A DNA stretch of 64,000 nucleotides from Candidatus Aphodovivens avistercoris. Its GTDB lineage: Bacteria; Actinomycetota; Coriobacteriia; Coriobacteriales; Eggerthellaceae. Below the pieces are notes generated by a model. It did no database searches and had not been told where the DNA came from. It saw only the letters and a program-made list of their open reading frames with translations. A program made the position numbers and the translations under genes. Positions 33,911 through 42,255 of the stretch are shown in pieces. Position 1 is the first letter of the stretch. Each line of letters starts with the position of its first letter. Location of the stretch: contig DVIW01000032.1 in assembly GCA_018710945.1 (NCBI GenBank), positions 1 to 64,000 of the forward strand, read 5' to 3'.

Positions 33911-35338
33911 CTATTCCGGTTTCACGGCGGCCAGCCGTACGATGAAGGTCGTTCCCTTCCCCACTTCGCTTTCCACCTCGATGGTGCCGTGATGGTACAG
34001 CACCGTGTGCTTCACGATGGCAAGGCCCAGCCCGGTGCCGCCTGTCTCCTTCGACCGGCTCTTGTCCACGCGGAAGAACCGCTCGAAGATCTTTTCGCGG
34101 TACTCCTCGGGGATGCCCGGACCCGTGTCGGACACCCGCACGACCACCGACTCGCCCGCCGCAGAACCCGCACCCGCAGCCTCGACGCTTATCGCCATGG
34201 ACACCTCGCCGCCGGGGTGGTTGTAGCGGATGCCGTTCTCCATGAGGTTGTACAGCATCTCTTCCACCATGGTCTCGTTGCCCATGACGAACGCCGGGCC
34301 GCCCGACACGCGCATTTTCACGCCCTGGTCGGCGGCGAAGCTTTCCAGGCGCGTCAGCACGCGGCGAGCCTGCGCGCCCACGTCCACCGGCTTGGAGTCG
34401 GCTTCGGTAAGCGAGGTCTCGTCCAGGCGCGAGAGCGCCAGCACGTCGTTGATGAGGCTGCGCATCGCCTGCGCTTCCTCGTAGATGAGCCCGGCGAACT
34501 TGCGGCGGTCGGCCGGATCCACCATGTCGTTCTTCATCAGCTCCGCGTAGCCCGAGATCACCTGCAGCGGCGTCTTCATCTCGTGGCTCACGTTGCTGGA
34601 GAAGTCGCGCCGCATGCTCTCGGCCTGGGCCAGCTCCACGTTCTGCTGCTTCAGCAGGCGCTGCTGCTCGTCGATGCGGAACAGCAGGGGATCCATCTCG
34701 GCGTAGATCTCGTTCTCCAGCGGACGCGAGAAGTCCAGCGCGTCGATGGGCTTCATGATGCGGCGCGTGAGCAGGCGCGACAGCGCAAACACCAGAACGC
34801 CCGCCACCAGCACGATGATGGCGGCCGGTCCTATCATGTTGCCGAGGAAGGCCATCAGCGACGAGCGCGATTCGGACAGACGCACCACCGCGCCGTCGGA
34901 AAGCGACACGGCGGCGTACACGGTGTCGGTGCGCAGCGTGTCGGAGTAGCGGATGGACAGCGCCTCGCCGTCTGCGCGCGCCTCGGCCACCTCCGGACGG
35001 TCCGCATGGTTTTCCATCGCAGCCTCGTCGGCGTCGGTGTCGTAGAGCACCTCGCCCTGCGGGTCGATGAGCGTGCAGCGGAAGTCGCCGCCCACCTGGT
35101 CGTCCAGCAAAGCGATGCCGTCCTCTGGCGTGGGCTGGGCCTCAAGCGCCAAGGCCAGCTCGCGCGTGTCGTCCAGCAGGTCGGCTTCCATGTCGTTGGC
35201 GTAGGTGAGGTAGAACAGGGCGGTCAGCACCACCGTTACCGCCACCAGGACGGCCAAAACGAACGCCAGCACGCTGGCGAATATGCGTCCCGACAGGCTT
35301 TTCGCCTGCCACAAAGGCCCCGAGAAGCGCGCGTTCAT
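33911..35338 (-). CDS. Two-component sensor histidine kinase (PhoR-like)
   Basis: The 475-residue kinase has two membrane helices (about 17-45 and 165-190) flanking an extracytoplasmic sensor, a HAMP-like segment, the H-box FSSNVSHEMKTPLQVISGY, N-box NLMENGIRYNHPGG, G1 DTGPGIPEE, F-box FERFFRVDKSRS and G2 GGTGLGLAIVKH. The signal is not deducible. It follows the response regulator by 21 bp, so the pair is one operon; TGG-type phosphate-operon relatives have the same look. Confidence 0.92.
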   Translation of the reverse strand: MNARFSGPLWQAKSLSGRIFASVLAFVLAVLVAVTVVLTALFYLTYANDMEADLLDDTRELALALEAQPTPEDGIALLDDQVGGDFRCTLIDPQGEVLYDTDADEAAMENHADRPEVAEARADGEALSIRYSDTLRTDTVYAAVSLSDGAVVRLSESRSSLMAFLGNMIGPAAIIVLVAGVLVFALSRLLTRRIMKPIDALDFSRPLENEIYAEMDPLLFRIDEQQRLLKQQNVELAQAESMRRDFSSNVSHEMKTPLQVISGYAELMKNDMVDPADRRKFAGLIYEEAQAMRSLINDVLALSRLDETSLTEADSKPVDVGAQARRVLTRLESFAADQGVKMRVSGGPAFVMGNETMVEEMLYNLMENGIRYNHPGGEVSMAISVEAAGAGSAAGESVVVRVSDTGPGIPEEYREKIFERFFRVDKSRSKETGGTGLGLAIVKHTVLYHHGTIEVESEVGKGTTFIVRLAAVKPE

Positions 35339-35359
35339 GCGACAGCCCGCCCCGCTTGG

Positions 35360-36052
35360 CTACGAGGGGCGCTTCAGGCAGTACCCCACGCCGCGCACGG
35401 TGCCGATGCAGCCATCGGCGCCCGGGCAGGCGGCGGCGAGCTTCTGCCGCAGGGTCTGGATGTGCACGTCCACGGTGCGCGTCTCGCCCACGTAGGTGAT
35501 GCCCCACACGTCTTCCAGCAGCTGGCTGCGGGTGAGCACGCGGCCGTTGTTGCGCATGAGGGTGCGCAGCAGGTCGAATTCCTTCAGCGTGAGCGACACC
35601 GGGTTGCCACCCGCCTCCACGGTGTGCGCGCCCGTCTTCAGCACGATGGGCCCGCAGGTCAGCTCGTCGTCGGCCAGCACGGCGGGCGCGGCGGCACGGC
35701 GCAGAAGCGCGTTCACGCGCGAGACCAGCTCCATCATGCCGAAGGGCTTCGCCAGGTAGTCATCGGCGCCGGCGTCCAGGCCGCTCACCTTGTCGAACTC
35801 GGTTCCCTTGGCGGTGAGCATCATCACCGGCAGGTGCTTGGTGGACGCGTCCTCGCGCAGGATGTGCAGCACCTCCATGCCGTCCATCTCCGGCAGCATG
35901 ATGTCCAGCAGGATGAGCTCGGGCAGGCGGTGCTTGCACGCCTCGAAGAACTCCCCGGGGGCGGCGAACCCCTCGGCCTCGAACCCTGCCTGACGCAGCG
36001 CGTAGATGGTCAGGTCGCGAATGTTCGTTTCGTCTTCAACGTAGTAGATCAT
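35360..36052 (-). CDS. Response regulator, OmpR/PhoB family
   Basis: The 230-residue protein has a receiver (MIYYVEDETNIRDL, phospho-acceptor in ILLDIMLPEMDG, MLTAKG, DYLAKPFGMMELVSRV) and a winged-helix output domain (LTLKEFDLLRTLMRNNGRVLTR, TVDVHIQTLRQKL, GVGYCL). The ATG at 36052 is the family start; no Shine-Dalgarno is visible. Upstream are two TTTGAC units 22 bp apart, a possible binding site for itself. Confidence 0.92.
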   Translation of the reverse strand: MIYYVEDETNIRDLTIYALRQAGFEAEGFAAPGEFFEACKHRLPELILLDIMLPEMDGMEVLHILREDASTKHLPVMMLTAKGTEFDKVSGLDAGADDYLAKPFGMMELVSRVNALLRRAAAPAVLADDELTCGPIVLKTGAHTVEAGGNPVSLTLKEFDLLRTLMRNNGRVLTRSQLLEDVWGITYVGETRTVDVHIQTLRQKLAAACPGADGCIGTVRGVGYCLKRPS

Positions 36053-36138
36053 GGCGTCAGTCGCAATCCAATCCGTGGCGCGGAGCGTGCCGCGCGTTCC
36101 TTCCCCACGCATCTTCGCACCGCGCGCAGGGCACCAAC

Positions 36139-38689: not shown

Positions 38690-38695
38690 TATAAT
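38690..38695 (+). promoter_or_regulatory. -10 box of tandem sRNA candidate 1
   Basis: Perfect TATAAT; a start at about 38702 places the first hairpin at the 5' end of the RNA. Confidence 0.5.
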
Positions 38696-38701
38696 CGGAA
38701 T

Positions 38702-38828
38702 CGGCAAACGGAAGGCTCCCCTCCTTTCGAATGCCCTGCCATCACGCAGGAAGCGGTGCTTCAGCATCGCCTCACCCCTCCTTGTTGCCCGGCGCGAGCT
38801 CCCCTCTCCCGCCGGGCGTTCCTTTTCC
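38702..38828 (+). ncRNA. C-rich small RNA candidate 1 (tandem pair)
   Basis: About 127 nt with four hairpins: CGGAAGG/CCTTTCG (38709-38729) with loop CTCCCCT; CCTGC/GCAGG; GCGGTGC/GCATCGC with loop TTCA; a linker with CACCCCTCC; and a terminator GCCCGGCG/CGCCGGGC (38787-38817) whose loop again contains CTCCCCTC, followed by TTCCTTTTCC. Three CCCCTC(C) blocks sit in loops or linker, complementary to GGAGG ribosome binding sites. No protein frame is conserved with the second copy. Confidence 0.6.
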
Positions 38829-39024
38829 TAGCGCCGGCGCGCACACCTCCACCCGCCGCACGCACGAGAACAGACGCGTCGGCTGCCGCCTGCGCTCCGC
38901 TTTCGGCCCCGCCAACCCCTTCCGTCACGCGCCCGACAGCTTCCCTTTACCTATTTGTTACTTTCGAAGGGCCAGATTCACAAAACGTGCACGGCCAGCA
39001 CATACGGTCTTCAATGGCGTTCGT

Positions 39025-39030
39025 TATACT
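39025..39030 (+). promoter_or_regulatory. -10 box of tandem sRNA candidate 2
   Basis: TATACT; start predicted at about 39037, the first base of the 5' hairpin. Confidence 0.5.
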
Positions 39031-39036
39031 GTGAGC

Positions 39037-39167
39037 CAGCAAGCGAGAGGTTCCCCTCCTCCCCTTGCTTCTGCTTATCCCTTAAAGCAGAGCGATGCAG
39101 AGCATCGCATTATCCCCTCCTTAGGGCCCGGCGGGAGTTCCCCTCTCCCCCGGGCCGCTTCTTTTTC
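39037..39167 (+). ncRNA. C-rich small RNA candidate 2 (tandem pair)
   Basis: About 131 nt, same architecture as the copy 335 bp upstream: AGCAAG/CTTGCT hairpin (39038 on) with loop TTCCCCTCC; CTGCTT/AAGCAG with loop TCCC; GCGATGC/GCATCGC; a linker with ATCCCCTCC; and a terminator GGCCCGG/CCGGGCC (39125-39156) with TTCCCCTC in its loop and a run of T. The stems differ in sequence between copies while pairing is kept, as expected for a functional RNA. Confidence 0.62.
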
Positions 39168-39397: not shown

Positions 39398-40066
39398 ATG
39401 AACATCGCGGTGCTGGAAGGCCACGTGTGCAACCCCGGCGACCTGACATGGAGCGCGCTCGACCGCTTCGGGAACGTGACGGTGCACGAGCGCACGCCGC
39501 GCGCGGAGCTGCGCGAGCGCCTGGCCGATGCCGACATCGCCATCGCCAACAAGGTGGTGTGGGACGAAGAGGCTCTCTCGTGGGCGCCGCGCCTGAAGCT
39601 GATCGCGCTGGCCTCCACCGGCTACAACGTGGTGGACCTGAACGCCGCCCGCGCGCACGGCGTGACGGTGTGCAACGTGCCGGCCTATTCCACGCCCGAT
39701 GTGGCCCAAATGACGTTCGCCCTGATGCTGGGGCTGTGCCTGCACGTGGAGGACCACACGCGCATGGTGATGGACGGCGACTGGGTGCGCGCAAACGACT
39801 TCTGCTTCTGGAACGGGTCGCTGGTGGACGAAGCCGCCGTGGCGGACGCCCTGCGCACGGGGAAGCTCGCGGGCTTCGACGCCGACGTGGTGTCGCGCGA
39901 GCCCATGCGCGCCGACAACCCGCTGCTTTCCGTGCGCGACCGCAACGTGCTGATAACGCCCCACATCGCCTGGGCCACCCGCGAGGCGCGCGCCCGCCTG
40001 CTGGACGAGATCGCGAAGAACATCGGGGCGTTCCTTGCCGGAACGCCCCGCAACGTGGCGAGCTGA
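39398..40066 (+). pseudogene. D-2-hydroxyacid dehydrogenase with internal in-frame deletion of the NAD domain
   Basis: The 222-residue frame has the N-terminal catalytic half (NIAVLEGHVCNPGDLTW, ALASTGYNVVDLNAA, VCNVPAYSTPDVAQMT) up to FCFWNGS, then jumps to LVDEAAVADALRTGKLAG and the C-terminal part with SREP (catalytic Glu) and TPHIAW (catalytic His). The Rossmann domain of about 95-100 residues, with GxGxxG and the catalytic Arg, is missing. Intact relatives are about 315-320 residues. AAAGGAGG precedes the ATG, so expression is possible but NAD-dependent activity is not. Confidence 0.85.
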
Positions 40067-40085: not shown

Positions 40086-40898
40086 TTACGCCTGCTTGCG
40101 GCGGAACAGGATGTTGTTCGTCTCCAGCCAGCTTTCCACCGTGCCGGTGTCGAAGCCGTCGGCGGGGTCGATGACCAGCGCGTACATTTCCTCTTCCTTC
40201 AGCACGGCGTCCAGCGCGTCGGTCAGCTGGATCTCGCCGCCCACGCCGGGCTGCACGTCGGCCAGAAGCTCCATGACGCGCGACGAGAGCAGGTAGCGAC
40301 CGAACACGGCCAGGTTGCTGGGCGCGTCCTCGAGCGCCGGCTTCTCCACCAGCGAATCAACCTTCCACACGTCGTCGGAGACGGCCGCGCCGGCGATGAT
40401 GCCGAAACGGCTCACCTGGTCGTCGGGCACCGGCATGACGGCGATGACGCTGGCGCCGCCGTGCGCGTCGGAGACCTCCTGCATGCGCGGCAGCATCTTG
40501 TTGTCGGGCACCAGCACGTCGCCCAGCAGCACGTAGAACGGCTCGGAGCCCGTCTTCTCGTGCGCGCAGCGGATGGCGTGCCCCAGGCCCAGCGGCTCGT
40601 CTTGGTACACGTAGCTCACGTTGTAGTTGCCCACCTGCTCCACCACGTCGGCGTACTTGTCTTTGCCGCGGGCGCGCAGCGTGGCCACCAGCTCGGGGTT
40701 GGGGCTGAAGTGCTCTTCGATGGATTTCTTCTCGCGGCTGTTGATGATGACCACCTCGTCGGCGGCGGAGGCAAGGCCCTCCTCCACGACGTACTGGATG
40801 GCCGGGCGGTCCACGACGAGCAGCATCTCCTTGGGCTGCGCCTTCGTCGCCGGCAGGAACCGCGTGCCCAGGCCCGCGGCGGGAATGAGTGCCTTCAT
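40086..40898 (-). CDS. galU: UTP--glucose-1-phosphate uridylyltransferase
   Basis: The 270-residue nucleotidyltransferase makes UDP-glucose for envelope glycans. Seen are KALIPAAGLGTRFLPATKAQPKEM, EPLGLGHAIRCA, VLLGDVLVP, FGIIAG, VEKP and GEIQLTDAL. It matches typical length. The ATG has AGGAGG 9 nt upstream. Convergent with the dehydrogenase remnant; an extended -10 lies 76 bp upstream. Confidence 0.95.
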   Translation of the reverse strand: MKALIPAAGLGTRFLPATKAQPKEMLLVVDRPAIQYVVEEGLASAADEVVIINSREKKSIEEHFSPNPELVATLRARGKDKYADVVEQVGNYNVSYVYQDEPLGLGHAIRCAHEKTGSEPFYVLLGDVLVPDNKMLPRMQEVSDAHGGASVIAVMPVPDDQVSRFGIIAGAAVSDDVWKVDSLVEKPALEDAPSNLAVFGRYLLSSRVMELLADVQPGVGGEIQLTDALDAVLKEEEMYALVIDPADGFDTGTVESWLETNNILFRRKQA

Positions 40899-40974
40899 AG
40901 GGAATGACCTCCTGTTTCGATGTCTGACGCGCAACGGGCGCGGGCAGCGGGCCCCTCCGGCAGCGCGCCTCCGC

Positions 40975-40983
40975 ATTGTAGCA
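40975..40983 (-). promoter_or_regulatory. Extended -10 promoter for galU
   Basis: TGCTACAAT on the minus strand, leader about 70 nt, no -35 match. Confidence 0.45.
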
Positions 40984-41124
40984 TGCGCCGCGAAGAGCCC
41001 CGGACGCCCCGGGCATTCTCCAACGGAACAGCGCCTCGCGCCCCTGCCCGGCGGCGAAGGAGTATGATGAAGCCGATCACCCGGCGCCGAAGCGCGACGC
41101 CCCGAAACGAAAGGCGGCCTGCCC

Positions 41125-42255
41125 ATGACCGACGGCAAAACCGTGAAGATAACCCTGCTCACCGGCTACCTGGGCGCCGGCAAGACCACGCTTTTGAACC
41201 ACATCCTCGCAAACGGCGACGGCGTGCGCGCCGCCGTCATCGTCAACGACATCGGCGAGGTGAACGTGGACGCCGCGCTGGTGCGCGACGGCGGCCTGAC
41301 GCAGGCCGACGACATCATCCCGCTGACCAACGGCTGCATCTGCTGCACGCTGTCCGACGACCTGGCGAACCAGCTGCAGGCCATCGCGGCGTCGGGCGAC
41401 TTCGACTGCATCCTCATCGAGGCATCGGGCATCTGCGAGCCCATCCCCATCGCCTACACCATCAGCGGATTCTGCGATCAGACCGGCAACGGCCCTGCGC
41501 CGCTGGCGCTGGACAACATCATCGCGGTGGTGGACTGCGCGCGCCTGCTGGACGAATTCGATGCCGGCCGCGCCCTGGCGGCGGGCGACGTGGACGAAGA
41601 CGACGTGGAAAGCCTGCTGATCCAGCAGATCGAGTTCTGCACCACGCTCGTGCTGAACAAGACGGACCAGGTGACGCCCGAGCAGCTGGCCGAGATCAAG
41701 GCCATCGTGCGCAGCCTGCAGAAGGACGCGCGCATCATCGAGGCGGTGCGCGGCGAGGTGCCGCTGGGCGAGCTGCTGGACACCGGCCGATTCGACTTCA
41801 ACGACGCGTACAACTCCGCCGCTTGGATAGCGGCGATGGAGCATCCTGAAGAGCACGAGGAGCCCGAGGTGCTGGAGTACGGCTTCTCCACCTTCGTCTA
41901 CGAACGGCGCCAGCCCTTCGACCTGGAGAAGCTCGGCGCGTTCGCCGAGAGCTGGCCGCGGGAGATCGTGCGGGCGAAGGGCATCGTCTGGGCGGTGCAG
42001 GACCTCGACGAGCGCCTGCTGTTCGAACAGGCCGGGCGCCAGATTTCCGTGACGGGCACCGGCCCGTTCGCGGCCGCGATGCCCGAAGAAGAGCGCGCCG
42101 CCGAGCTGGCCGCCGATCCGTCGCTTGAGGCGTTCTGGGATCCCGAGCTGGGCGACCGCGGGACGCGCCTGTGCGTCATCGGGAGACACCTGGATCGCGC
42201 CGCGATGGAAGCCGCCCTCGACGCCTGCCTGGCGCAAGACGAGCCGCGAAGCTGA
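41125..42255 (+). CDS. CobW/COG0523-family GTPase (metallochaperone)
   Basis: A 376-residue G3E GTPase: Walker A GYLGAGKTT, NDIGEVNVD, the metal-binding GCICC (CxCC), SGICEP, NKTD specificity motif, and a CobW C-terminal domain from about residue 250. Family members deliver zinc, cobalt or other metals under GTP control. An acidic EHPEEHEEPE stretch could help bind metal. The partner enzyme is unknown. TATGAT at 41063 may be its -10. Confidence 0.92.
   Translation: MTDGKTVKITLLTGYLGAGKTTLLNHILANGDGVRAAVIVNDIGEVNVDAALVRDGGLTQADDIIPLTNGCICCTLSDDLANQLQAIAASGDFDCILIEASGICEPIPIAYTISGFCDQTGNGPAPLALDNIIAVVDCARLLDEFDAGRALAAGDVDEDDVESLLIQQIEFCTTLVLNKTDQVTPEQLAEIKAIVRSLQKDARIIEAVRGEVPLGELLDTGRFDFNDAYNSAAWIAAMEHPEEHEEPEVLEYGFSTFVYERRQPFDLEKLGAFAESWPREIVRAKGIVWAVQDLDERLLFEQAGRQISVTGTGPFAAAMPEEERAAELAADPSLEAFWDPELGDRGTRLCVIGRHLDRAAMEAALDACLAQDEPRS

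Follow-up and report, generated by a model that had tools for sequence, protein, structure and literature searches.

Paired C-rich RNAs at an inherited locus of Eggerthellaceae are probable trans-acting sRNAs with redundant anti-Shine-Dalgarno motifs

The window, a stretch of 64,000 nucleotides of contig DVIW01000032.1 from Candidatus Aphodovivens avistercoris, contains two tandem small RNA (sRNA) copies on the plus strand. They are flanked by c0, a divergently oriented gene for an S-methyltransferase-domain protein (PF02574; 37409..38407, minus strand), and by c1, a convergent gene for a galU-like UTP-glucose-1-phosphate uridylyltransferase (40086..41162, minus strand), whose best NCBIfam match, TIGR01099, lies below the cut-off. 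Copy 1 occupies positions 38702..38829 and copy 2 positions 39037..39167. A -10 box, TATAAT, precedes copy 1 at 38690..38695 (plus strand) and is seen both in the sequence and in the promoter comparison; the corresponding box of copy 2 is TATACT at 39025..39030 (plus strand). The next plus-strand gene begins at 39398, 231 nt after copy 2. This gene (39398-40066) encodes a 2-hydroxyacid dehydrogenase of only 222 residues, apparently without most of the NAD-binding domain: its match to the 320-residue families breaks off near residue 141 and resumes near residue 240. It appears to have arisen by internal deletion, to be a decayed gene or to reflect an assembly fault.

Both copies are predicted to fold into four hairpins followed by a T-tail. 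The minimum free energy is -52.3 kcal/mol for copy 1 (z -4.9) and -59.5 kcal/mol for copy 2 (z -7.3), and in either case 0 of 200 shuffled sequences was equally stable. Hairpin 4 and the adjoining T-run form an intrinsic terminator in each copy (38787..38828 and 39125..39167, plus strand), with a CCCCUC loop at 38801-38806 and 39140-39145, respectively. A first C-rich block, CCCCUCC, occupies loop 1 of the predicted fold (38718..38724 in copy 1, 39053..39059 in copy 2; plus strand). A second, CCCCUCCUU, lies in the single-stranded linker before the terminator (38775..38783 and 39114..39122, plus strand), where the unpaired probability is 0.99 in both copies. Loop 2 of copy 2 holds an additional C block, CCCUU (39079..39083, plus strand), at a place where many relatives have CCCC or UCCC. 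Hairpin 2 of copy 1 is weaker, with 4 bp, and its loop has no C-run. In an alignment of each copy with its promoter, the mean column identity between the two is 80%. An earlier note on this DNA had described two plus-strand copies with the same four-hairpin design, ending in terminators with CCCCUC loops and exposing their C blocks in loops. The coordinates, the folds and the terminator loops agree with that description. The common design holds for the number of hairpins, hairpin 2 of copy 1 being the weaker one, and the placement of the C blocks is correct for loops 1 and 4, whereas the third block sits in the linker.

Comparison of 83 aligned copies demonstrates that this RNA structure is under selection, since all 37 of its 37 base pairs carry compensatory changes. 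Changes on both sides of a pair occur in 398 cells. Standard pairs make up 95.9% of pair cells, a value that is somewhat inflated by the fitting of the alignment to the tested structure; sliding the partners by 1-3 columns as a control leaves 35-48% paired. The terminator helices 5 and 6 are paired in 97-99% of cases. The earlier note had read the kept pairing of the two copies, despite their base changes, as a sign of structural selection, a view that relatives with stems free of compensatory change would have undermined; instead, every pair covaries. Paired columns average 82% identity with pairing retained, and identity in the C blocks is 94-100% at the core C/T columns. All three blocks are kept in 77 of the 81 complete copies (block 1 in 79, block 2 in all 81). 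The C blocks are thus the most conserved part of the RNA, as expected for anti-Shine-Dalgarno seeds.

Long open frames span the region in this GC-rich DNA and could be taken to indicate a small protein or an mRNA in which the repeats are protein repeats. Any such frame would be broken by the loops and linkers, whose length differs by 1-2 nt from copy to copy, conservation follows the base pairs, and both copies end in terminators, so that we give a coding region next to no credence.

The RNA is widespread in the family. Of 100 relatives searched at the DNA level, 27 have homologues; all 27 are Eggerthellaceae, and a covariance model, R1, was built from 14 of them. R1 detects copy 1 with 61.4 bits (E 4.6e-14 in its own genome) and copy 2 with 123.9 bits, the copy 2 sequence having itself been used in building the model. 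These are the only two copies found in the genome by covariance model search; a third match (G000:C34) is a bare terminator without C blocks and was rejected. Of 138 Eggerthellaceae genomes, 103 contain R1 matches, and these cover 37 of 48 genera; one to three copies per genome are usual and four the maximum, and the weak matches in a few of the 103 genomes may be due to chance. In a sample of 396 genomes from the phylum, 12 gave a match and all of these are Eggerthellaceae, with no R1 match outside the family. When 84,980 species were scanned with an exact pattern, 30 stretches were returned, of which those with a taxon label all belong to Eggerthellaceae or Coriobacteriia, including Gordonibacter, Eggerthella sinensis, Paraeggerthella, Rubneribacter, Raoultibacter, Adlercreutzia, Enteroscipio and Candidatus Aphodovivens. 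With an order-wide search and a second model, R2, three sister families within the order also yielded matches, which were weak; eleven of these loci hold C blocks where they are expected, in most cases the full set of three. R2 also detected divergent copies in genomes G017 and G033. A covariance-model search, as the earlier note had proposed, places the RNA in most of the Eggerthellaceae genomes searched and, in divergent form, in sister families.

Most of 41 compared loci have the RNA flanked by the divergent c0 and the convergent c1/galU. Outside these two genes are nrdD/nrdG or rarA and, in some loci, a two-component system. The site is split in genome G007, where one RNA copy is found beside each of c0 and galU, and tandem copies in relatives are often kilobases apart with genes between them. 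The simplest history suggested by this arrangement is a single inherited locus with local duplications. Synteny also bears on the possibility that the RNAs act in cis, as leaders or attenuators of a gene further downstream such as galU or the 2-hydroxyacid dehydrogenase at 39398, a role that would agree with the terminators and with the plus-strand gene past copy 2. However, galU is convergent, and the dehydrogenase cluster (c17) is absent downstream in many genomes. The lack of conservation of the plus-strand gene argues against a leader RNA, as do the distances and intervening genes between tandem copies and the location of the RNA away from either neighbour in G007. The leader reading is largely refuted by this synteny, and we consider it very improbable.

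About 70 of 81 copies are preceded by a promoter module of the form TTCACAARACG..CAY-N8-CATA..TTCAA-N10-TATAMT, each letter of which is found in 69-76 of the 81. CA steps recur every 11 bp, at -46, -35, -24 and -13 from the -10 box, and there is no -35 hexamer. Class-II activators of the PhoB/OmpR type typically act at promoters that lack a -35 box and have repeats of 11-bp period ending 10 nt before the -10 box. From this geometry we infer a regulator of the OmpR/PhoB type, a response regulator that probably induces most copies. In the window, the module precedes copy 2 as TTCACAAAACGTGCAC-N8-CATACGGTCTTCAA-N10-TATACT (38977..39030, plus strand; CA steps at 38979, 38990, 39001 and 39012), and the 54-nt pattern is found once in the genome. 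Window copy 1 is an exception to the direct-repeat architecture: it has no upstream 11-bp CA-repeat module, and the same is true of copy 1 in the sister species G002. Given this difference, the conditions that lead to expression are probably not the same for the two copies. Upstream of the module of copy 2 is a further element with 11-bp spacing, TTTAC-N6-GTTAC (38946..38961, plus strand), which is common to many galU-side copies in relatives. Copies on the c0 side often carry upstream GTTCACCGA-like elements, and those on the galU side TTTAC-N6-GTTAC (L105, L107, L108, L109, L110 and other multi-copy loci), a hint of two old, differently regulated paralogue groups.

In those genomes that were tested, the full pattern is confined to sRNA copies and one additional site with three mismatches in G012 (L163; G012:C14:11455-11508). 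The sRNA copy of G012 scores weakly, and L163 could be its promoter or could belong to another gene of the same regulator. The module was not found at pstS promoters, which leaves a plain phosphate regulon unsupported. A sensor kinase and a response regulator are encoded three genes away from the sRNAs (33911-36112, minus strand), with PnpS and PhoB as best NCBIfam matches, both below cut-off. The pair does not adjoin the sRNA in most relatives; it could regulate copy 2.

At this locus, neither the window nor the homologues reach the gathering score of any Rfam family, in keeping with the earlier note, whose author did not recognise the family. Subthreshold matches to atoC and ar14 in a relaxed scan were not repeated in homologues. 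The earlier note had also compared the RNAs with the 6C RNA of Actinobacteria (RF01066) and doubted the identity. RF01066 gave no match at gathering score or at relaxed E-values in the window and the homologous loci. The 6C RNA has two stem-loops, each with six Cs in its loop. The present RNAs resemble it as actinobacterial sRNAs with C-rich loops, but differ in that they have four hairpins and present CCCC(U)CC at three or four sites; loops 1 and 4 and the linker hold the CCCCUCC blocks. In Mycobacterium abscessus, the loops of B11 are redundant in the repression of an mRNA that carries a G tract (PMC10470900).

Three other systems are comparable. In ar14/NfeR1 of Sinorhizobium, ultraconserved C-rich anti-Shine-Dalgarno motifs, CCUCCUCCC, are unpaired and the stems vary; NfeR1 has three redundant motifs of this kind and mRNA silencing has been demonstrated (PMC10746234). 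Conserved unpaired C motifs on variable stems, three of them redundant, are common to both RNAs; however, ar14/NfeR1 is Alphaproteobacterial, has three hairpins and carries CCUCCUCCC in each of them, whereas the motif here is CCCCUCC(U) and one of its sites is a linker. The ar14 model (cuckoo RNA, RF02344) scores only 19.3 bits on copy 2, against a gathering score of 58.8, and finds no match in copy 1 or, at E up to 5, in seven homologous loci. LhrC1-5 of Listeria monocytogenes are multicopy sRNAs of 111-114 nt that depend on the two-component system LisRK and for which blocking of the Shine-Dalgarno site has been demonstrated (PMC4132741). They are similar to the present RNAs in copy number, in length and in the placement of redundant seeds in loop, linker and terminator loop, but have two stem-loops and CUCCC(...)UUUU motifs and come from a low-GC Firmicute; since no Rfam family matched, no homology to LhrC is detected. 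In RoxS/RsaE, C-rich regions pair with Shine-Dalgarno sites, the response regulator ResD/SrrA acts as activator, and the RNA serves redox homeostasis (PMC4409812). The C-rich anti-Shine-Dalgarno principle with a response-regulator activator, the latter putative in our case, is shared, whereas structure and clade differ, Rfam gives no match, and the link to redox metabolism is here a candidate target, cydA. The best explanation from these comparisons is a separate family that would work like LhrC, ar14/NfeR1 or RoxS/RsaE.

The C blocks, CCCCUCC(UU), are complementary to (AA)GGAGGGG, a Shine-Dalgarno site with extra Gs, which substantiates the anti-Shine-Dalgarno complementarity proposed earlier for the exposed blocks. 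The RNAs have the sequence and structural features of the C-rich anti-Shine-Dalgarno class: their seeds are conserved and accessible, the structure is selected, and each copy has its own terminator and a promoter marked by the module or by a -10 box.

The best candidate target found is cydA, which encodes subunit I of cytochrome bd oxidase. The cydA gene of the genome is among those with a perfect AGGAGGGGA site. Redox and respiratory genes are not significantly enriched at such sites (15 of 30, one of which, for an NrfD-like protein, was classed by eye, vs 9 of 27 at a control site; p 0.28). Of the 38 genomes that have the RNA, 32 show a run of at least four Gs in the ribosome site of cydA, compared with 2 of the 8 that lack it (Fisher p 0.002) and 11 of 131 control genes (p 3e-19), statistics to be read in the light of the relatedness of the genomes and of the choice of cydA after one match had been seen; for these reasons we treat it as a candidate and not as a demonstrated target. 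The predicted duplex with cydA is within the best 2.3% of controls in the own genome and only moderately better than controls over 27 genomes, where a median of 14.5% of controls are as strong. Most cydA genes of Eggerthellaceae have an unusual ribosome site, for example AAGGGGGTGTG instead of AGGAGGTG (L237-L266, L297-L316).

Identical motifs repeated in loops on variable stems, in several copies per genome, are also a hallmark of RNAs that titrate a protein, and the C-rich loops could sequester an RNA-binding protein rather than pair with mRNAs. CsrB and RsmZ sequester CsrA in this manner via GGA motifs. Here, however, CCCCUCC(U) complements the Shine-Dalgarno site and is not a GGA motif, the motifs also lie in a linker and a terminator loop as in LhrC, where pairing with the Shine-Dalgarno site has been demonstrated, and the G-runs of cydA accompany the presence of the RNA. 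We regard titration as unlikely. A variant that is compatible with our best explanation keeps the anti-Shine-Dalgarno sRNA and assigns it a regulator of another type or a regulon not centred on respiration. The near-absence of the module elsewhere in the genomes searched, including at pstS, and the non-significant target enrichment agree with this variant, and the 11-bp spacing that ends 10 nt before TATAMT, typical of class-II activation by OmpR/PhoB-type proteins, speaks against a different regulator. We consider it possible, with the balance tilted against it.

Our preferred reading, which we hold to be likely, is a pair of trans-acting sRNAs with redundant anti-Shine-Dalgarno seeds, mostly induced by a response regulator and with cydA as a candidate target. 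The locus would give rise to two paralogous sRNAs of about 128 and 131 nt from independent transcription units that end at intrinsic terminators. Rigid, covarying hairpins would display three redundant C-rich seeds, in loop 1, the linker and the terminator loop, often with a fourth in loop 2. The seeds would base-pair with Shine-Dalgarno regions rich in G and keep ribosomes from binding, with mRNA decay as a probable sequel. A response regulator of the OmpR/PhoB type, bound to half-sites phased at 11 bp in place of a -35 box, would probably induce most copies; window copy 1 has lost this module and would presumably be controlled differently. A more far-reaching and tentative scenario, which we think could hold but rather doubt, is that the family forms the main response-regulator-driven post-transcriptional switch of Eggerthellaceae, a family of anaerobes from the gut, that it was duplicated early into paralogues at a fixed locus, and that its seeds and the G-rich ribosome sites of cydA and other respiratory genes evolved together. 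If true, Eggerthellaceae would possess an energy-metabolism sRNA comparable to RoxS or RyhB.

Our literature searches, which covered open-licence papers, returned nothing relevant on sRNAs in Coriobacteriia or Eggerthella and no trans-acting sRNA for Eggerthellaceae. Together with the Rfam results, this suggests that the family, apparently undescribed, belongs to a functional kind that is already known. It would add another apparently independent instance of a layout with redundant C motifs in loops, linker and terminator, as in LhrC, ar14 and RoxS, and so bears on the recurrence of this design. In the gut, Eggerthellaceae, among them Eggerthella, Gordonibacter and Adlercreutzia, use large sets of redox enzymes to convert drugs, bile acids and compounds from plants. 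A conserved sRNA that is present in several copies and has a clear promoter signature would offer a concrete handle on regulation in this family.
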